Below, piece after piece: positions 26,849-33,491 of a DNA stretch of 64,000 bases. The notes under the pieces are model-generated. The model did no database searches. It was not told the origin of the DNA and saw nothing but the letters and a program-made list of their open reading frames with translations. Origin of the DNA: Acidimicrobiales bacterium (GTDB lineage Bacteria; Actinomycetota; Acidimicrobiia; Acidimicrobiales; MedAcidi-G1). Numbering within the stretch: the stretch's first letter is position 1; each line of letters begins with the position of its first letter. A program made the translations under genes and the position numbers. The stretch lies in contig JAKURV010000002.1 in assembly GCA_022452035.1 (NCBI GenBank), forward strand, positions 1 to 64,000, given 5' to 3'.

Positions 26849-26868
26849 ACCGCTCCGGGTGGCGTCGG

Positions 26869-26874
26869 TAGCCT
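26869..26874 (+). promoter_or_regulatory. -10 element TAGCCT of mdh
   Basis: It would give a leader of about 28 nt. GAGGAG at 26898-26903 is the ribosome site that fixes the GTG at 26910, so mdh is not leaderless. Confidence 0.45.
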
Positions 26875-26909
26875 CGGACCACAGGCCCGAGCCCCCCGAG
26901 GAGTCTTCC

Positions 26910-27899
26910 GTGAGCCCCCGTCCCGTCCGAGTTGCCGTCACCGGAGCCGCCGGTCAGATCGGCTACAGCCTCGTCTTCCGTATCGCCAGTGGCCACCTCC
27001 TAGGGCCCGACCAGCCGGTGGCCCTCCATCTGCTGGAGATCCCCCCGGCCATGGGGGCCCTCGAGGGAGTGGCCATGGAATTGGACGACTGCGCCTTCCC
27101 TCTCCTCGACGGATTGGTACCTACCGACGACCCGGGCCTGGCCTTCGACGGCGTCAACATCGCCCTGCTGGTCGGTTCCAGGCCCCGGTCTGCGGGCATG
27201 GAGCGCCAGGACCTCCTGGAGGCCAACGGCGCCATCTTCACCGGACAGGGTCGGGTGTTGAACGACCGGGCGGCTGACGACCTTCGCGTGCTGGTGGTCG
27301 GCAACCCGGCTAACACCAACTGCCTGATCGCCATGAACAGTGCACCGGACGTTCCGAACGAGCGGTTCACGGCCATGATGCGCCTAGACCACAATCGGGC
27401 TCTGACCCAGGTCGCCCAACGCCTCGGTGTGTCGGTCAACGACGTCACCCGGATGACCATTTGGGGTAACCACTCGGCCACCCAATACCCGGACCTCTTC
27501 CACTGTCGGGTAGGCGGGACCAGCGCTGCCGAGGCGGTAGACGACCAGGCCTGGTTAGAGGACCAGTTCATCCCCACCGTCCAGCAGCGAGGAGCGGCCA
27601 TTATCGAGGCACGCGGTGCCTCCAGCGCTGCCTCGGCGGCCAACGCGGCCATCGACCATGTCAACGACTGGGTGTTCGGGACACCAGACGACGACTGGGT
27701 CACCATGGGCGTGCCGTCGGACGGAAGTTACGGTGTACCCGATGGCCTGCTCTGCGGGTTTCCGGTCACCTGCACCGACGGCGCTTACTCCATCGTGCAG
27801 GGTCTGGACGTCGACGAGTTCTCCCGGCAGCGGATCGACGCCTCGGTAGCCGAGCTGGCCGCCGAACGGGACATGGTGCGCGGCCTCGGCTTGATTTGA
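26910..27899 (+). CDS. mdh: Malate dehydrogenase
   Basis: NAD-dependent TCA-cycle enzyme, 329 residues. The cofactor loop [18 protein letters not shown] is at the start. [26 protein letters not shown] is the cytosolic-type MDH signature. [19 protein letters not shown] carries the substrate arginines on the mobile loop. The catalytic histidine is in [13 protein letters not shown], and the catalytic aspartate is in [10 protein letters not shown]. Length equals the family norm for this subtype. GTG 26910 is chosen for its GAGGAG site and because [15 protein letters not shown] is a typical beginning. Confidence 0.96.
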
Positions 27900-27905
27900 G
27901 TGGTT

Positions 27906-27934
27906 AGGCCGTCGGACCCTGTTCTGGTCGGCCT
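27906..27934. terminator. Possible bidirectional hairpin between mdh and MOSC genes
   Basis: AGGCC at 27906 pairs with GGCCT at 27930, and GACC at 27915 pairs with GGTC at 27926, with a 4-nt bulge. It fills the gap between the convergent genes. Confidence 0.35.
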
Positions 27935-28371
27935 CAACTCTCCCAGGACACCTCGTCACCGACGGCCAGATCAGCGTCGTTCAAGGCGATACCGTGCACG
28001 CCCCCCCGCCAACCGACTTCCATGGCAGCCCGCAGCCCCTGATGGGCGGCGTCCATGAGGCCGCACGGCCGGGTTTCGCCGGTTACCTGGATGCGGGCCC
28101 CGCCGACTCGCAGCACTCGCCCGGTGGACTCGACCAGGTCGCCCAGGCCGGTGACCAGAATGTTGGCCCGGCGGGCCGACGGGTCCAGTTCGGCGTCGGC
28201 CTCAGCGTTGGCGGCCTCCCAGTCCTCAGCGGACAGCACGGTGACCTGACGGGGGCCACCCCGTTCGGCGTTTCCGACCAGGCCGTGGTTCGACCGTACG
28301 GAGGCGTGCTCCACCTCTTGCAGGGGTTCGCCCTTTACGGGCTTCAACCAGATCCGCATGAGCTGGGCCAT
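27934..28371 (-). CDS. MOSC domain protein
   Basis: A small MOSC (molybdenum cofactor sulfurase C-terminal) domain protein of 145 residues, a family implicated in sulfur or molybdenum-cofactor transfer. MRIWLKPVKG, the strand after GGPRQVTVLSAEDW and GRVLRVGGARIQVTGETRPCGLMD carry the family pattern, including the conserved cysteine in RPCG that binds or transfers sulfur. The genome also shows moaE at 49285, so molybdopterin chemistry exists. The start at 28371 is supported by TACCTT 6 nt upstream; the later Met of MRIWLKP is an alternative. The sulfur acceptor is unknown. Confidence 0.82.
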   Translation of the reverse strand: MAQLMRIWLKPVKGEPLQEVEHASVRSNHGLVGNAERGGPRQVTVLSAEDWEAANAEADAELDPSARRANILVTGLGDLVESTGRVLRVGGARIQVTGETRPCGLMDAAHQGLRAAMEVGWRGGVHGIALNDADLAVGDEVSWES

Positions 28372-28377
28372 GTATGA

Positions 28378-28383
28378 AAGGTA
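28378..28383 (-). promoter_or_regulatory. -10 element TACCTT, leaderless MOSC gene
   Basis: Minus-strand hexamer 6 nt before the ATG at 28371. Confidence 0.45.
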
Positions 28384-28408
28384 CCCGGCAACCGGACAAC
28401 GGTTCGGC

Positions 28409-28777
28409 TCAGGGCTCCCGGGCGACGGCGAACACGTCGCCTAAGCCGTCGAACACGGCACGGTGCTCAACCAGGAGGCGGGGGTCGCCTCCGAGAGTCA
28501 GGTCCCCGTCGATCACGGCCCGTAGGGGATCCAGCGTGCCGGCGGCTAGGGCCCGGGCTGTAACCGGGTCAGTGGCGAAACGCAGGTCGGGATGGTCGGC
28601 TGGTCCAGCGATTACTCGGACCGAACCGTGGTCGAACACCACATGCCAGGTGGGTCCACCGGAGGTCGAATACTCCAATACGAGGGTCATGGCGGCGGCG
28701 GCCTCCTGGAGCCCGGGGTGTTCGGCGACCGCGGTGTCCAGGGCGGCGATCCAGGCGTCGGACAACGGTTCGGCCAC
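28409..28777 (-). CDS. SCP2 sterol-transfer family protein
   Basis: A 122-residue single-domain protein of the SCP2 (sterol carrier) fold. Family-like features are LEYSTSGGPTWHVVFDHGSVRVIAG, a sequence typical of the SCP2 beta-sheet, and the C-terminal DLTLGGDPRLLVEHRAVFDGLGDVF with the hydrophobic helix that closes the lipid cavity. It may bind fatty acyl or sterol-like ligands; no enzyme is fused to it. The GTG start at 28777 has TAGGCT 8 nt upstream. Confidence 0.75.
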   Translation of the reverse strand: MAEPLSDAWIAALDTAVAEHPGLQEAAAAMTLVLEYSTSGGPTWHVVFDHGSVRVIAGPADHPDLRFATDPVTARALAAGTLDPLRAVIDGDLTLGGDPRLLVEHRAVFDGLGDVFAVAREP

Positions 28778-28785
28778 AGTCCGGG

Positions 28786-28791
28786 AGCCTA
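28786..28791 (-). promoter_or_regulatory. -10 element TAGGCT, leaderless SCP2 gene
   Basis: Minus-strand hexamer 8 nt before the GTG at 28777. Confidence 0.5.
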
Positions 28792-28856
28792 GGTCCCGAC
28801 CTGGTCGGCCGTGATGGCCCTACGAGCCCACTGGTCGTGTACCGGGTGGTAGACGC

Positions 28857-28862
28857 TACGGT
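28857..28862 (+). promoter_or_regulatory. -10 element TACGGT of the swivelling-domain operon
   Basis: It would give a leader of about 58 nt that contains the hairpin at 28899-28917 and a ribosome site before the GTG at 28927. Confidence 0.4.
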
Positions 28863-28898
28863 GCCGGCCACCGCTGGGGCGGGCCTCCACGGGTCTGG

Positions 28899-28917
28899 CC
28901 CGCGGTGAAACCGCGGG
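28899..28917 (+). promoter_or_regulatory. Hairpin that partly covers a ribosome binding site
   Basis: A perfect 8-bp stem (CCCGCGGT with ACCGCGGG) and a 3-nt GAA loop end inside the GGGAGGGG ribosome site that lies just before the GTG at 28927. Folding of the stem could hide the first three G residues of that site. Confidence 0.45.
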
Positions 28918-28926
28918 AGGGGAACG

Positions 28927-29277
28927 GTGTCGGAGGTCGGTCGAGGGCAGAAGACCTACGACTTCGGCACGGCCCGCGGGCGGTGGGTCCGCTTGGAGGG
29001 ACCCGACGACGTGCTGGGTCTGATGGACACAGGAGCCGACGGCCTGGTGGCTGTTGTCAGAGACGCCGGTGCCACGTTCCTGGGACCAGTCTTCGACGAG
29101 TTGGCCGGCGTGGTGTGCACCGGGGGGACGATCCGAAGCCACATCGGGATCGTCAGCCGGGAATACCGGGTCCCAGGGGTGGTGGCCGCCGTCCTGTCCG
29201 AGGAGCCGGACGAGGGTGCCGAGGTGGAGTTGGACGCAACCGGGACCGACGGCGTGGTCCGCCTGGTCGGGGGATGA
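28927..29277 (+). CDS. Stand-alone PEP-utilizing enzyme mobile (phosphohistidine) domain
   Basis: A 116-residue protein that is essentially only the swivelling phosphohistidine domain (Pfam PF00391 type) of PEP synthase, PPDK and rifampin phosphotransferase. The active motif reads GGTIRSHIGIVSREYRVPGV, with S71 and H72 in place of the usual T/S-S-H-A-A-I-V-A-R pattern. The ATP-grasp and PEP-binding domains that normally phosphorylate and dephosphorylate this histidine are absent. The next gene overlaps by ATGA and encodes an unrecognised 388-residue protein, which is the obvious partner. A hairpin overlaps the ribosome site. Confidence 0.8.
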   Translation: MSEVGRGQKTYDFGTARGRWVRLEGPDDVLGLMDTGADGLVAVVRDAGATFLGPVFDELAGVVCTGGTIRSHIGIVSREYRVPGVVAAVLSEEPDEGAEVELDATGTDGVVRLVGG

Positions 29278-30440
29278 CTACCGACGTCGTCCCCGGTCGC
29301 GCCGAGGAGGGTGTCCCGGCCCGGCGCGACCAGGTGAACGGGTGGCTGGCCACCATCAACCCGATCACCCGCCAGTTGGTCGCTGAGCGGACCGGTTACT
29401 CCTCGCAGCTCATCCCGGTCACGCCCTACGTGATGGTGTCCTGCGTCGAGGCCTTCCTCCGCTACCCGGACGCCGTGGCCATCATCACGGCGGCTATGGA
29501 ACCGGAGGAGATCGGGGTGGAGGCCCGGCGTCCCGGCTGTCAGGCCAACTCGGTGTTTCTTTGGGGTGTGGCCAACTTCTTCCTCATCGGACGCAACGTC
29601 CTACGGGCGGTAGATCCCTCGGTGGACGACGCCCCGAACGCGCTAGACCGTGCTCACACGGTGCTGGACTTCTGGGCCCGGACGTCACGGGCCTACAGGG
29701 GCGGCGACCACCTTCACGCCGCCGAGGTGGGCGACCGCCTGGACGTGTTCGACGAGGACACGGTGTCGGCGCTGGTGGCGGCGGCCACAACAGTGGATGA
29801 CGGGCGTCGGGACCGGATCAGGCGGGCCAACGCCACCATTATCAACCATCTCTTCCTGCTCTATTTCGACACCCGGGTTGGGCACGGGGATACCGGCCCG
29901 TACCACCTAGACGACGGTCGTACGGTGATCATTCGCGACTACTTCCGGCTGGCCGAGAGTGACCTGGCCTGGTCACCGGTGGCCGCCGCGGTCCCCCACG
30001 GAAACCTCACGGCCGTTCTTGTCCTCGACCCCGGGGTGGAGGTCCGAATCACCGACTTCGGGACCACGGTCTCGACGCCCGAGGACTATCTCGACCACCT
30101 GTCGGAGTTCGCCCTGTTCACTTCGGACGGCGTAGGACCCGGCCAGCCACTGGTACCGGTCTCTGACGACGAAATGGACGTCGTGGCCTCGGCCGCCAGG
30201 GCTGCGCAACGCCGCCACTACCGGGACATCGTGGCTATGGACCGGGACCAGCGGATCGCCTGCGGGGCCTACGTCTACCTGACCTTCCTGCGCCCCTTCG
30301 CTGAGTTGGCTGGGGTGGCCGACGAGATCGATTGGACCTGCCCCCGGGACACCCCGGCTGACCTATACCCCCTGATCACAGCTGACGTGGAGGCTTCTCA
30401 ACCCGATCCGGATACCGATCTCTACCCACCTTTCGGCTGA
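29274..30440 (+). CDS. Unrecognised 388-residue protein coupled to a swivelling domain
   Basis: I do not recognise a family. It starts by an ATGA overlap with the preceding phosphohistidine-domain gene. The sequence is soluble-looking and partly helical, with no signal peptide or clear membrane span. Conspicuous stretches are a hydrophobic N-terminal helix region (LIPVTPYVMVSCVEAFLRYPD), GGDHLHAAEVGDRLDVFDEDTVSA, and an Arg-rich helical part (RRDRIRRANATIINHLFLLYFDTR). Near the middle, PHGNLTAVLVLDPGVEVRITDF resembles a beta sandwich strand pair. No ATP-grasp lysine or glycine loop was seen. It is predicted to act with the swivelling domain, perhaps as its phosphate donor or acceptor; this is inference. 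Confidence 0.75.
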   Translation: MTTDVVPGRAEEGVPARRDQVNGWLATINPITRQLVAERTGYSSQLIPVTPYVMVSCVEAFLRYPDAVAIITAAMEPEEIGVEARRPGCQANSVFLWGVANFFLIGRNVLRAVDPSVDDAPNALDRAHTVLDFWARTSRAYRGGDHLHAAEVGDRLDVFDEDTVSALVAAATTVDDGRRDRIRRANATIINHLFLLYFDTRVGHGDTGPYHLDDGRTVIIRDYFRLAESDLAWSPVAAAVPHGNLTAVLVLDPGVEVRITDFGTTVSTPEDYLDHLSEFALFTSDGVGPGQPLVPVSDDEMDVVASAARAAQRRHYRDIVAMDRDQRIACGAYVYLTFLRPFAELAGVADEIDWTCPRDTPADLYPLITADVEASQPDPDTDLYPPFG

Positions 30441-30462
30441 GGAAGAACAGGCGACGGCGAGC

Positions 30463-31185
30463 ATGCGGTGCCATCGGCTGGCGTGGTGGTCCCCCGACCG
30501 TACGTCGGGTGGCCACGTCCGCCTAGCCGTCCACGACGAGGGCCCGGCCTGGTTCTGGTGTGGCCTGGTGGCCATCGGGGAGCCCACGGTGCTGGTCACC
30601 GACCACGCTGTACCGCCACCCCGGTCGTCCGGCCTGGAGGTGCGGTCGTCTGGCCTGTGGGCCGAGGTGGTGGTGGAGGAGCCCGGTCTCCACGTAAGTG
30701 TTGGCCTTGAGGCCTTCGGTGTGGCCGTCGCCGATCCGGAGGACGCCTGGCGGGGCGGAACCGACCACCAGTTTCGGGGCGACCGCCTCGCCGTCGGCCT
30801 TGACCTGGGCGGTGAAGCAGTCGGCGAACTACCGGCCGGAGACTCCGTGCCCTGTCGGGTGGTCGGCGAGGTCCTGATTGCTGAGCGGGCAATCCCTGTG
30901 GACGGCTGGGGGTGGTGGGACTACCAGAATGCAGGCGGAGACCCGTGGTCCGGACCGTGGACCAGCGTGCGGGCGCGCCTCGACGACGGCACGTGGTGGG
31001 CCGGCGGAGCGATCTCCACGGGAGAACCGGTGGGTCGGGCACCGGTACTGGTCGCTGACAGTGGTCGCCCTGCTATTCATGTCGACCGGACGCTGGGCCC
31101 GGTGGCCATCGACGGCCGTCCGGGGTTCGGGTGGGTCGAGACGATGGTTCCCGTCCCGGACGGGCTACCTCAATCTCCGGCCTGA
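30463..31185 (+). CDS. Hypothetical protein, possibly lipocalin-like
   Basis: A 240-residue protein without signal peptide, rich in tryptophan and beta-strand patterns (HVRLAVHDEG, AWFWCGLVAIG, VDGWGWWDYQNAGG, DDGTWWAGGAIS). The repeated W-G-x-x-D or W-W-D elements are reminiscent of AttH/CrtC-type lipocalin folds, but the resemblance is weak. A short tandem duplication near 30618-30655 gives two RSSGL segments. The gene begins 22 nt after the preceding one and its end overlaps the DUF368 gene on the other strand by 16 nt. No function can be assigned. Confidence 0.65.
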   Translation: MRCHRLAWWSPDRTSGGHVRLAVHDEGPAWFWCGLVAIGEPTVLVTDHAVPPPRSSGLEVRSSGLWAEVVVEEPGLHVSVGLEAFGVAVADPEDAWRGGTDHQFRGDRLAVGLDLGGEAVGELPAGDSVPCRVVGEVLIAERAIPVDGWGWWDYQNAGGDPWSGPWTSVRARLDDGTWWAGGAISTGEPVGRAPVLVADSGRPAIHVDRTLGPVAIDGRPGFGWVETMVPVPDGLPQSPA

Positions 31186-32111
31186 AACCGATCCCGAGCG
31201 AGGCGGTCGACGGCGAGGACGACGACCAGGGACAGGGTGGCGAGCAGTGTCGGCCCCACTAGGCCGTCGGCGGCTTCCGGCCAACCCAGGGCGGTACCGG
31301 CCACTGCCTCCTCAGCATGGCGGCTGATTACGCCGACCCCGTGGGGCCATGGCCAGAGGACCCGGAGCGAACCCACCAGCAGGCCGACCATCACGGCTAG
31401 CACGTCGTCATGCCATCGGGCCAGTAGGCGGGCCAGCAGCGTCGAGAAGCAGGCCAGCCCGACGATGGCCCCAGCGCCGAAGACTGCTGCATCGGCCACC
31501 ATTCGGTCGTCGACTACCTGGATCATGGTGCCGTACATGCCCACCATGAGAAGGAGGAATGAGCCGGAGATACCTGGGAGCACCATGGCGCATATGGCCA
31601 CGGCTCCCGAGGCGAACAGGACCACGGGGGAGGGATCGATAACCGGGGCACCCTTCAGCCCGAGAACTGCGAAAAGGACTATTCCGATGAAAACCACGGT
31701 GGTCGCACGGAGTCTGGTCCACGCCACGTCCCGGCGGGCGATGAGGATCGAGGCCAACACGAGGCCGGTGAACAGGCCGGCCATCGACTCCGGATGGTCG
31801 ACCAGCGCCTGCTCTATCACACCGGCCAACACGGCGACGGCGGTCAGCAGACCAGTCAAAAGGGGCAACACGAATCCCCACGGAACCTCTGCCGACCGGC
31901 GGGCCGCGCCCCGCATGTCGCCGCGGACCAGGCATCCCAGGGCACGGGCCCCGGTGTGCACGGCCCCGATCAGCCGGTCGTAGATGCCGAGTAGTAGGGC
32001 GACGGTGCCACCCGAGACCCCGGGAACCACGTCGGCGGCTCCCATGAAGGCCCCCCGAACCACCTGGAGGGCGGCCCGGAGGAGGCGGCCCTGCGCCCCG
32101 GGCGCCGGCAT
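31170..32111 (-). CDS. DUF368 membrane protein (polyprenyl-phosphate transporter-like)
   Basis: A 313-residue polytopic membrane protein of the DUF368 family, recently reported as undecaprenyl-phosphate flippases (PopT). The hallmark GAADVVPGVSGGTVALLLGIYDRL appears early and is mirrored by the second half, AMVLPGISGSFLLLMVGMYG, the inverted-repeat signature of the fold. Eight to ten hydrophobic segments can be traced. It should recycle lipid carrier for wall synthesis. The start overlaps the thioesterase stop by one base (TGATG), so the two are cotranscribed. At the 3' end it overlaps the convergent gene by 16 nt. Confidence 0.85.
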   Translation of the reverse strand: MPAPGAQGRLLRAALQVVRGAFMGAADVVPGVSGGTVALLLGIYDRLIGAVHTGARALGCLVRGDMRGAARRSAEVPWGFVLPLLTGLLTAVAVLAGVIEQALVDHPESMAGLFTGLVLASILIARRDVAWTRLRATTVVFIGIVLFAVLGLKGAPVIDPSPVVLFASGAVAICAMVLPGISGSFLLLMVGMYGTMIQVVDDRMVADAAVFGAGAIVGLACFSTLLARLLARWHDDVLAVMVGLLVGSLRVLWPWPHGVGVISRHAEEAVAGTALGWPEAADGLVGPTLLATLSLVVVLAVDRLARDRFQAGD

Positions 32112-32542
32112 CAGCCCTCCCGCTCCGGGGAGCTCGTCGGAGCGACGACCAGGTACGAGGCCAGACGCTCCACCATGGTCTCGGGCAATCTCACGGGCCG
32201 TCCACTGATGCCGGTAACCGCGGCCACCACCTCCTGGGTGGCCAGGACCTCGTCACCCCGCATGATGCGCTGTCCCCACCGCGACGAGGCACGGCGGATC
32301 TCGATGACTTCCGTCTCGACGACCAGGGCGTCCCCGCCCACAGCGGAGGCCAGGAACCTTGTGGCGATCTGGGTGACCACGAAACGGAAGCCCTCGTCCT
32401 CCAAGTCATGGAGGCCGAGGCCCACCTCGTCCAGCAGCTCCACCCGCCCCGTCTCGAACAACTGCACGTAGACGCTGTGGTTGAGGTGTCCGTACGGGTC
32501 GAGCTCGTAGAAGCGGACCTTCACGGGGTGGCGGTGGGGCAC
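32111..32542 (-). CDS. Hot-dog acyl-CoA thioesterase (4HBT type)
   Basis: A 143-residue hot-dog-fold protein of the 4-hydroxybenzoyl-CoA thioesterase/YbgC type. The motif VRFYELDPYGHLNHSVYVQLFE contains the catalytic aspartate D15, followed by the helix RVELLDEVGL and beta strands such as ALVVETEVIEIRRASSRW. It should hydrolyse short acyl- or aryl-CoA in the cytoplasm. The start is set at GTG 32542 because TAGCGT lies 7 nt upstream, so the longer reading to TTG 32575 is dropped. It is followed directly by DUF368 in the same transcript. Confidence 0.82.
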   Translation of the reverse strand: MPHRHPVKVRFYELDPYGHLNHSVYVQLFETGRVELLDEVGLGLHDLEDEGFRFVVTQIATRFLASAVGGDALVVETEVIEIRRASSRWGQRIMRGDEVLATQEVVAAVTGISGRPVRLPETMVERLASYLVVAPTSSPEREG

Positions 32543-32549
32543 GGCGGCG

Positions 32550-32555
32550 ACGCTA
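32550..32555 (-). promoter_or_regulatory. -10 element TAGCGT, leaderless thioesterase
   Basis: Minus-strand hexamer 7 nt before GTG 32542. It decides between this start and the TTG at 32575. Confidence 0.5.
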
Positions 32556-32624
32556 GCCGGGGCGGCATTGGGCAACCGGCCGGTGCCGGGGCCTCCCCTG
32601 CCGGGTCGTTCAGGTGGCCGGCGT

Positions 32625-32630
32625 TACCCT
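32625..32630 (+). promoter_or_regulatory. -10 element TACCCT, leaderless hydrolase gene
   Basis: The hexamer ends 6 nt before the ATG at 32637. Confidence 0.5.
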
Positions 32631-32636
32631 CGGCCG

Positions 32637-33491
32637 ATGGCCGACACCGCGACACCACAGGGCATCGAGCTGTTCTCCGAGGCCTTCGATCCTGCTCCGG
32701 GCTGGTCCCCTAGGGACCCCGCCGTCCTGCTGGTATCCGGTGCCGACTCCCACTGCACCCGATGGACGCCGGAACTCATCGGTCCTCTGGTGGACCACGG
32801 CTTCCGGGTGGTTCGCTATGACCACCGGGACTGGGGCCTGTCTACCAAGGTTTCGTCCGACGTGGGCTACACCCTCGACGACCTGGCCGATGACGCCCTG
32901 GCCGTCCTCGACGAGCACGGGATCGACCAGGCCCACGTGGTTGGTCGATCGATGGGCGGCATGGTGGCGCAGGTCCTGGCTCTCGACCATCCCGGCCGGG
33001 TGAACACCCTCACGCTGGTGTCCTCGACGCCCGGCCTGGGCGATGACCGCCTTCCGTCGGCCGCTAACTGGCTAGTCGACCGGATGGCCGAGCGGCTGTT
33101 CGCCCCGCCGCCCACCACCCCGCAGCAGCGGGCGGCCTGGGTGGTAGAGATGGACGAGATGTTTGCCGGGACTCGCTACCCGGTGGCCACCGGAGACCGG
33201 CTCCGGGTGGCTATAGACGAGGTGGAGCGGTACTGGTACCCGGAATCGGGGCACGGTCCAGCGGTCAACTCCTCGTCTTCGCGCCTGGACCGGCTAGGGG
33301 AGGTGGCGGTGCCCACCCTCGTTGTGCACGGGACCACCGATCCAGTCTTCCCAGTGGAACATGCCCTGGCTCTGGCCGATGGAATTCCGGGGTCTGAGCT
33401 GTGGCTGGTCGAGGGCCTAGGCCACGAGTTTCCGGACGGGCTGGTTCCCGACCTCTTGCCCCGCCTACTAGCCCACCTACGTCGGGCCTGA
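32637..33491 (+). CDS. Alpha/beta-hydrolase fold protein
   Basis: A 284-residue alpha/beta hydrolase. The oxyanion region VRYDHRDWGLSTKV, the nucleophile elbow VVGRSMGGMVAQVLALDHP (GRSMGG), the acid segment VVHGTTDPVFPVEHA and the histidine in EGLGHEFPDGL match the triad order. Length and motifs resemble the family of esterases and haloalkane or aclacinomycin-methylesterase-like enzymes (RdmC type), but the substrate is unknown. A leaderless promoter fits the ATG at 32637. It is convergent with the sdh operon. Confidence 0.87.
   Translation: MADTATPQGIELFSEAFDPAPGWSPRDPAVLLVSGADSHCTRWTPELIGPLVDHGFRVVRYDHRDWGLSTKVSSDVGYTLDDLADDALAVLDEHGIDQAHVVGRSMGGMVAQVLALDHPGRVNTLTLVSSTPGLGDDRLPSAANWLVDRMAERLFAPPPTTPQQRAAWVVEMDEMFAGTRYPVATGDRLRVAIDEVERYWYPESGHGPAVNSSSSRLDRLGEVAVPTLVVHGTTDPVFPVEHALALADGIPGSELWLVEGLGHEFPDGLVPDLLPRLLAHLRRA

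Follow-up and report, generated by a model that had tools for sequence, protein, structure and literature searches.

Dikinases that act through a swivelling histidine domain underlie the inactivation of rifampin as well as the catabolism of aromatic compounds, and the reach of the class is set by its substrate module. Enzymes of the RPH, HpeHI and PpsAB kind use ATP to phosphorylate a small molecule, releasing AMP and Pi. Rifampin phosphotransferase (RPH) is described, in the part of its account available, as a single chain comprising an ATP-grasp domain, a RIF-binding domain and a C-terminal swivel (PMC4844700). With PpsAB (phenylphosphate synthase), CreHI and HpeHI, all of which serve in aromatic catabolism, the available portion of the description has the swivel His take phosphate from a donor that is a different chain and deliver it to a small molecule bound by a substrate domain; in HpeHI, HpeH combines the swivel with a domain of the rifampin-binding type in one chain, and HpeI is a separate ATP-grasp protein (PMC12167813). 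VadK (Rv1127c) of M. tuberculosis is outlined as a PPDK that lacks the PEP domain and uses ATP to phosphorylate a His of its own; its operon partner is Rv1126c, and a role in tuning the methylcitrate cycle has been proposed for it (PMC13400623). In the open-licence PMC literature, represented mostly by titles and abstracts, no description was recognised of the gene pair considered below, in which a stand-alone swivel protein is accompanied by a larger protein of no recognised family.

The swivel gene and its family-less partner

The window, that is, the whole stretch of 64,000 nucleotides analysed (positions 1 to 64,000 of contig JAKURV010000002.1 of an Acidimicrobiales bacterium), contains the following features, among which the partner of the swivel protein is referred to as BIG:

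28927..29277, + strand: stand-alone phosphohistidine swivel protein, 116 aa, PF00391, H72
29274..29277, + strand: ATGA overlap of the swivel stop and the BIG start, read from the sequence
29274..30440, + strand: BIG, family-less partner and proposed substrate-binding subunit, 388 aa, ATG at 29274
30463..31185, + strand: downstream gene, DUF7064/DUF7065-like, possible accessory part, 240 aa

The swivel gene starts with GTG at 28927, just 3' of a GGAGG-like site, and ends with TGA at 29275-29277; the shared ATGA makes translational coupling to BIG likely. With starts set by script, the two genes were found to overlap in 40 of 59 same-strand pairs. The downstream 240-residue protein fell slightly below the Pfam cut-off for DUF7064 (23.9 vs 24.7 bits), and it is homologous (39% over 183 residues) to a protein of a related locus, L036, that lies above the cut-off for both DUF7064 and DUF7065. 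A DUF7064-like homolog was present anywhere in the locus in at least 41 of the 71 named loci that extend at least 1 kb past BIG, a count that is low as the search overlooked close relatives of the window. Positions 26859-33491 of the window and the related loci present a recurrent icd-mdh ... sdhBA setting across the Acidimicrobiia, in which SCP2-like, MOSC and DUF368-like genes are also seen (DUF368 by eye).

The swivel protein matched PF00391 with 28.5 bits against a curated Pfam cut-off of 23.1, and H72 is the His of its S-H-I-G-I-V-S-R-E motif. This His, the preceding Ser and the Arg six positions on were retained in all 88 aligned sequences, which represent 74 of the 75 named swivel loci and 14 other sequences (L113, whose profile hit was split, was omitted). 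In Pfam scans at E<=10, neither the swivel protein nor BIG matched the PEP-binding domain PF02896, or any PEP-binding or ATP-grasp domain at all.

BIG itself matched zero Pfam models at E<=10, zero PHROG or PADLOC models at E<=1 and no PDB sequence by phmmer. Two lines were rejected as chance-level, namely GvpA in NCBIfam (E 0.044; 13.9 bits against a cut-off of 100) and, for a 75-row BIG profile against the PDB, a thioredoxin reductase chain (E 0.058). The sequence-only reading had given the coordinates, the lengths of 116 and 388 residues and the ATGA overlap correctly; its assignment of a PF00391-type domain with H72 is upheld by the score above cut-off and the invariant His, and the 388-residue partner that it could not place, and for which it had proposed a sensitive profile search, remains without a significant match in Pfam, NCBIfam, PHROG, PADLOC and the PDB.

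Within the 75-row alignment, identities among the BIG sequences range from 31 to 97%. Nine residues (Y52, F194, R201, G208, P209, R221, W233, P269 and Y335) are retained by no fewer than 47 of 48 family-wide sequences; those kept at 90% or above include S44, P48, R142, D199, G203, D206, Y210 and W354; a conserved motif, D-x-R-x-G-x-x-D-x-G-P-Y, spans residues 199-210 of the window protein. An AlphaFold2 model built on the 75 rows (pLDDT 92.1, pTM 0.91) shows long helices and, from residue 204 to 283, strands; BIG is predicted to be a helical protein with an inserted beta-sheet. Foldseek returned 87 matches of this model to the PDB at E<=10 and zero at E<=0.001, RPH being absent among the 50 of the 87 that were listed. 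With VIA-align, the best Z was 3.8, for a Vif chain (99 residues, 4.9 A), which is the common background level, and the aligned rows truly span only residues 159-321 of BIG. Comparison with the RPH-type substrate domain by hhalign gave a probability of 0.1%, a weak test given a profile of three rows drawn from RPH/RedH-like proteins of the window's genome.

Co-occurrence, rearrangement and natural fusions

Of 100 related genomes, the window's own included, 45 contain BIG and 45 the swivel family; both genes were found in 44, BIG alone in one (G074), the swivel alone in one (G061) and neither in 54 (Fisher p 4e-26, not corrected for kinship). Counted by genus, 12 of 58 have both, with BIG in 13 and the swivel in 13 (p 2e-10). 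The two exceptions are of different kinds. In G074, the BIG hit (E 6.1e-4) has an internal stop and no swivel, and is doubtful as a sequence. In G061, where no BIG was detected, the swivel has retained its His and lost the following S-R-E, and a DUF7064-like gene remains beside it; it is this loss of S-R-E with the His and the neighbour still in place that looks like decay once the partner was lost. Beyond these relatives, searches of two further classes of actinobacteria, with 66 and 24 genomes, recovered BIG from one genome each, in both cases the seed itself, and a phylum-wide draw placed it in 6 of 396 genomes, the window's own included.

A scan of named genomes gave 86 BIG matches, of which the best 80 were analysed. 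Among these best 80, the BIG-bearing genomes are, by their titles, mostly Acidimicrobiia or Actinomycetota, and most of the named relatives are MAGs; the 33 scan sequences that were placed in a tree form one clade. Two Acidimicrobiia-type copies were found in records whose titles look wrong, one titled as Gemmatimonadetes (L057, 88% identical to the window protein) and the other as Bifidobacterium breve (L111). The swivel lies near BIG in 75 of the best 80 named loci, and in the remaining five BIG begins 2-784 bases from the end of the contig. It is upstream on the same strand in 62 of the 75 (including three whose swivel and BIG profile hits have one or two bases in common), downstream in one, upstream, divergent and adjacent in three, and upstream and divergent at a distance of about 1.2 kb in nine; at L121, a zinc alcohol dehydrogenase gene sits between the divergent swivel and BIG. 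Since the pair stays close despite inversion and changes of order, its association outlives rearrangement.

The two proteins also occur as one. Locus L093 encodes the swivel and BIG in one chain of 540 residues with an Ala/Pro/Asp-rich linker, plasmid pROB02 of R. opacus encodes the swivel, BIG and a third protein (see below) in a single 793-residue chain, and R. oxybenzonivorans pRB98 and R. pyridinivorans pA each carry one copy of a swivel-BIG fusion. In all four chains the swivel is N-terminal, and the four natural fusions fall at three separate places in a tree of 47 BIG sequences, in which the long-branch row L159 is placed with doubt. Two alignments (A5 and A6) were anchored on the read-through rows and checked by script.

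For the L093 fusion, AlphaFold2 returned a pLDDT of 89.3 and a pTM of 0.88 over the 540 residues, 26 of which form a disordered linker, from an input of 46 rows, five of them spanning both domains. As such a pTM is unexpected for domains placed independently, the model suggests that the swivel and BIG domains are set firmly against each other. In a Foldseek search with this model, rather than with the window protein, the swivel part resembled PPDK, pyruvate kinase, RPH and Enzyme I chains; PPDK chains were matched at E 5.8e-4 and 8.9e-4, whereas 2fm4, the carrier domain of PPDK in isolation, gave E 2.1e-3 with a TMt of 0.60, and the three matches at E<=0.001 cover about 113-127 columns, which is the size of the swivel. 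In the family look-ups, a match of the swivel to a phage head-tail adaptor (E 0.11) was judged to be due to chance.

Taken together, co-occurrence, persistence through rearrangement and fusion at three places in the tree make BIG very likely the physical partner of the swivel, and the pair is a real, co-inherited and probably physically coupled module.

Possible donors on plasmids and in the Acidimicrobiia

By tblastn, BIG was found on nine plasmid records from Rhodococcus, Methylibium, Paraburkholderia and Novosphingobium. Ten loci outside the Acidimicrobiia, mostly on plasmids, were read (L140, L145, L146, L147, L148, L149, L156, L157/L177, L158 and L159); they include two MAG contigs (G232 and G279), two of the ten loci share one plasmid, and the R. 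opacus records H4 and H5, which match in the same manner as pROB02, were left out. A third protein of about 200 residues (the P0006/P0009 family), weakly winged-helix-like by Pfam lines below cut-off, is present in nine of the ten loci, fused in one. A protein combining ATP-grasp and swivel domains, here termed PPDK, was found near the pair in eight of the ten, although at L177 BIG lies some 8 kb from the swivel, the third protein and the PPDK, and at L147 the PPDK is divergent and about 7 kb off. The two loci without it are L140, where the contig ends after 4.8 kb, and that of Methylibium PM1, where none was seen within the 27 kb read.

All eight of these PPDKs carry both PF01326 and PF00391. 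The PEP domain PF02896 was absent at E<=0.1 from seven, and the eighth, at L145, has a partial match barely above cut-off (23.3 vs 22.8 bits). Five are short (527-597 residues) and three (L145, L149 and L158) are long (835-856 residues), the two long ones besides L145 having tails of about 340 residues without a match. The two of the eight that were scanned against NCBIfam, P0008 and P0007, scored 784.8 and 534.9 bits, respectively, with NF004531 (PRK05878; cut-off 456). The plasmid neighbours comprise AMP-ligases, alcohol and aldehyde dehydrogenases and P450, joined in PM1 by a cobalamin mutase cluster.

Two Rhodococcus plasmids each carry three swivel/BIG sets, one of them fused (L148, 6879-18370; L156, 6509-18598), but only one gene for the third protein and one for the ATP-grasp protein within the stretch read, an arrangement that looks as if several substrate modules shared one donor. 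At L146 (10285-10743; Methylibium PM1) and L141 (802-1260; G232), a protein of about 153 residues is encoded between BIG and the swivel, the PM1 copy of which had no Pfam match. The G232 BIG is 86% identical to the PM1 plasmid protein across two phyla, and for this reason the G232 copy is probably mobile DNA, recently transferred, or contamination.

The setting in the Acidimicrobiia is different. Among 79 loci with long flanks, in which some genomes are present under two ids and gene names were Pfam-tested with one member each, the gene clusters neighbouring BIG include mdh in 53, sdhB in 41, sdhA in 37 and icd in 13. The rearranged L041/L101 and the complete genome of IMCC26256 (icd and mdh) also show a setting of this type. 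This may be simple synteny, or it may be a pointer to central carbon metabolism. In the clade with 33% identity, the one locus read in detail, L121, has instead a luciferase-like oxidoreductase and two ChsH2-type OB-fold proteins in addition to the zinc alcohol dehydrogenase. In 7 of the best 80 named loci, IMCC26256 included, the third protein has a homolog encoded divergently beside the swivel; elsewhere in the Acidimicrobiia it lies apart from the pair, and homologs were found in 50 of 61 relatives. At L168, L170 and L171, this homolog adjoins a dapA-like gene, with a SURF1-like gene on the other side in two of the three (names NCBIfam-tested in L170 only), and no ATP-grasp PPDK was seen beside it.

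The window's genus is represented by 17 genomes (G000-G016), all of which contain both BIG and the swivel, and PF01326 was found in none of them; the same scan found it in 55 of 100 relatives and 13 of 14 controls. What the genus has is half of a PPDK, a protein of 508 aa from the window's genome (L003; G000:C12:38623-40146) with a swivel and a PEP domain and no ATP-grasp domain, close relatives of which were found in 16 of the 17 genomes, the exception being G005, which is 78% complete. Its gene adjoins that of glycyl-tRNA synthetase. Judged by sequence, the PPDK of this genus appears to have lost its ATP half and conserved its PEP half, and this loss makes PEP, by way of the half-PPDK, the leading candidate route of donation in the genus, a choice that is a guess. 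Three further proteins of the window's genome, of 558-583 residues with a C-terminal swivel (L001, L002 and L004; G000:C41, C3 and C26) resemble the substrate and swivel regions of RPH/RedH. As these are likewise without a PF01326 partner, the genus may have another donor, not recognised here.

Proposed function and comparison with described systems

Given near-constant pairing and occasional fusion, the pair is probably the working half of one enzyme, hitherto undescribed, that phosphorylates some compound. We favour, with a little better than even confidence, the proposal that a dikinase-like phosphotransferase for small molecules is here split in two, with the swivel as its carrier half and BIG as its acceptor half. 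H72 would take a phosphoryl group from a donor protein encoded elsewhere, and the phosphorylated swivel would then dock on BIG and hand the group to a small molecule held there. In the plasmid operons the donor would most likely be the nearby ATP-grasp and swivel protein, and in the window's genus the half-PPDK could provide a PEP-dependent supply. The substrates may perhaps be of the alcohol or phenol type on the catabolic plasmids and a central carbon compound in the Acidimicrobiia. The frequency of the ATP-grasp protein (eight of ten loci) and of the third protein (nine of ten) makes it likely that the donor is another protein and places BIG, more likely, on the acceptor or substrate side.

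Several observations stand against this proposal. The plasmid ATP-grasp protein has a swivel of its own, so that a second is not obviously needed, and the one at L145 keeps a partial PEP-domain match; the known type of ATP donor is missing from 17 genomes that all have the pair; BIG showed no relation to the RPH-type substrate domain in the weak hhalign test; and G061 keeps the swivel and a DUF7064-like gene with no detected BIG, just as G074 has a doubtful BIG hit and no swivel. In many Acidimicrobiia, moreover, the neighbours are icd, mdh and sdh rather than a catabolic operon, and the role there may consequently differ. A more elaborate version, in which donor, third protein, free swivel and BIG would form a four-protein phosphohistidine relay, with BIG as a new kind of phosphoacceptor or substrate module of unassigned fold, swapped and multiplied for different substrates, and the version in the marine genus of the window driven by PEP through a PPDK minus its ATP-grasp domain, is unlikely; if it held, the genus version would phosphorylate a small molecule at the expense of PEP without belonging to the sugar PTS.

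These results qualify the sequence-only reading, which had viewed the two genes as a possible undescribed two-component phosphotransfer system, with the neighbour as the best candidate for donor or acceptor and co-occurrence across genomes as one check. Co-occurrence (44 of 100 genomes, with each gene alone in one) and the fusions at three places back the neighbour as partner, and a role for it as donor is disfavoured by the ATP-grasp protein in eight of ten loci. The family-less partner, co-occurrence and fusions also speak for a system of this kind, but a closed set of two proteins does not fit the recurrence of the ATP-grasp and third proteins. The pair itself appears to be undescribed, but the general mechanism proposed for it is one already described, as far as the available account goes, for PpsAB, CreHI and HpeHI (PMC12167813).

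Another possibility, which we consider unlikely though worth keeping in view, is a regulatory relay in which the phosphorylated swivel switches BIG, and BIG in turn acts on central carbon flow as enzyme or regulator, in the manner proposed for VadK. The mdh (53 of 79), sdhB (41) and icd (13) clusters near BIG in the Acidimicrobiia, and the similar settings of L041/L101 and IMCC26256, are in keeping with it, as are the weakly winged-helix-like third protein that accompanies the system and the make-up of the short plasmid ATP-grasp and swivel proteins, shared with VadK, a histidine kinase that, by its account, acts on metabolism (PMC13400623). Synteny with housekeeping genes, however, is explicable by simple inheritance, and the plasmid copies have catabolic genes as neighbours and number up to three swivel/BIG sets for each ATP-grasp gene, which is a better fit to substrate-specific modules than to one regulator.

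It is less probable still that BIG is itself the donor; it would then be a kinase of a new type, binding a nucleotide or PEP, and the swivel that it phosphorylates would serve some other acceptor. Without PF01326 in any of the 17 genus genomes, some other donor must exist there if H72 is used, and conserved Arg and Asp residues are abundant in BIG (R142, R201, R221, D199 and D206); against this, the ATP-grasp protein is present in eight of the ten loci outside the Acidimicrobiia and, as weak evidence, no nucleotide- or PEP-binding fold appeared among the 50 of 87 Foldseek matches listed.

Aconitase X, which we take to be a small swivel protein beside a partner of about 400 residues (Pfam families PF01989 and PF04412), calls to mind a further alternative, in which BIG would be an enzyme and the swivel its structural lid, without phosphorylation, as in some dehydratases of the DHAD-type fold. 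The Foldseek rows for the fusion model do include dehydratase (DHAD) chains, none of them stronger than E 0.29. Nevertheless, neither the swivel nor BIG matched PF01989 or PF04412 in Pfam at E<=10, all 88 aligned sequences preserve S-H-x-x-I-x-x-R around H72, as phosphorylated swivels do, and PPDK swivels are among the best structural matches of the fusion model; both the aconitase X and the DHAD-like forms of the lid are improbable. Finally, spurious frames are many in GC-rich sequence and most named relatives are MAGs, but the idea that the two genes are paired by accident, or that a GC-rich metagenome assembly has yielded a spurious frame, is refuted for practical purposes by conservation of the pair in the complete genome of IMCC26256, the single-chromosome MAG OX638344 and annotated plasmids, by high family-wide conservation and confident folding of BIG (pLDDT 92.1), and by relatives in 45 of 100 related genomes.

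The split phosphotransferase that we favour would offer a handle on proteins whose sole annotation on plasmids of Rhodococcus and Methylibium is 'hypothetical' or 'PEP-utilizing enzyme', and on unannotated copies in Paraburkholderia and Novosphingobium plasmid records; many Acidimicrobiia carry them as well. With PPDK, PEP synthase and Enzyme I of the PTS, the pair shares a PF00391 swivel with the phospho-His feature, and it is unlike them in that neither of its proteins matches a PEP-binding or ATP-grasp domain. Compared by make-up, the short plasmid PPDKs are like VadK, with ATP-grasp and swivel domains, no PEP domain match and, usually, an adjacent gene for about 200 residues. The part of the VadK description available names no stand-alone swivel or BIG partner (PMC13400623), and the system described here supplies a testable set of partners for VadK-like truncated PPDKs beyond the tuberculosis bacteria.

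By the features tested, the pair appears to fall outside the RPH/HpeHI family. The PF01326 donor that characterises RPH, HpeHI and PpsAB was not found in the window's lineage (it is near the pair in eight of ten outside loci), the swivel is not C-terminal in the same chain, and a relation of BIG to the RPH-type substrate domain of these systems was not detected in what was a weak test. Unlike in HpeHI, the swivel and its partner are usually separate, with fused forms having the swivel first, and the plasmid donor candidate, unlike HpeI, bears a second swivel. The proposed logic of an ATP-grasp protein, a substrate-binding part and a swivel would nonetheless be that of RPH, and the proposed delivery by a swivel from a separate donor to a small molecule held by BIG would be that of PpsAB, CreHI and HpeHI. 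If this is true, a second and apparently unrelated substrate module, borne on a separate protein, would widen the class of swivel-His dikinases.
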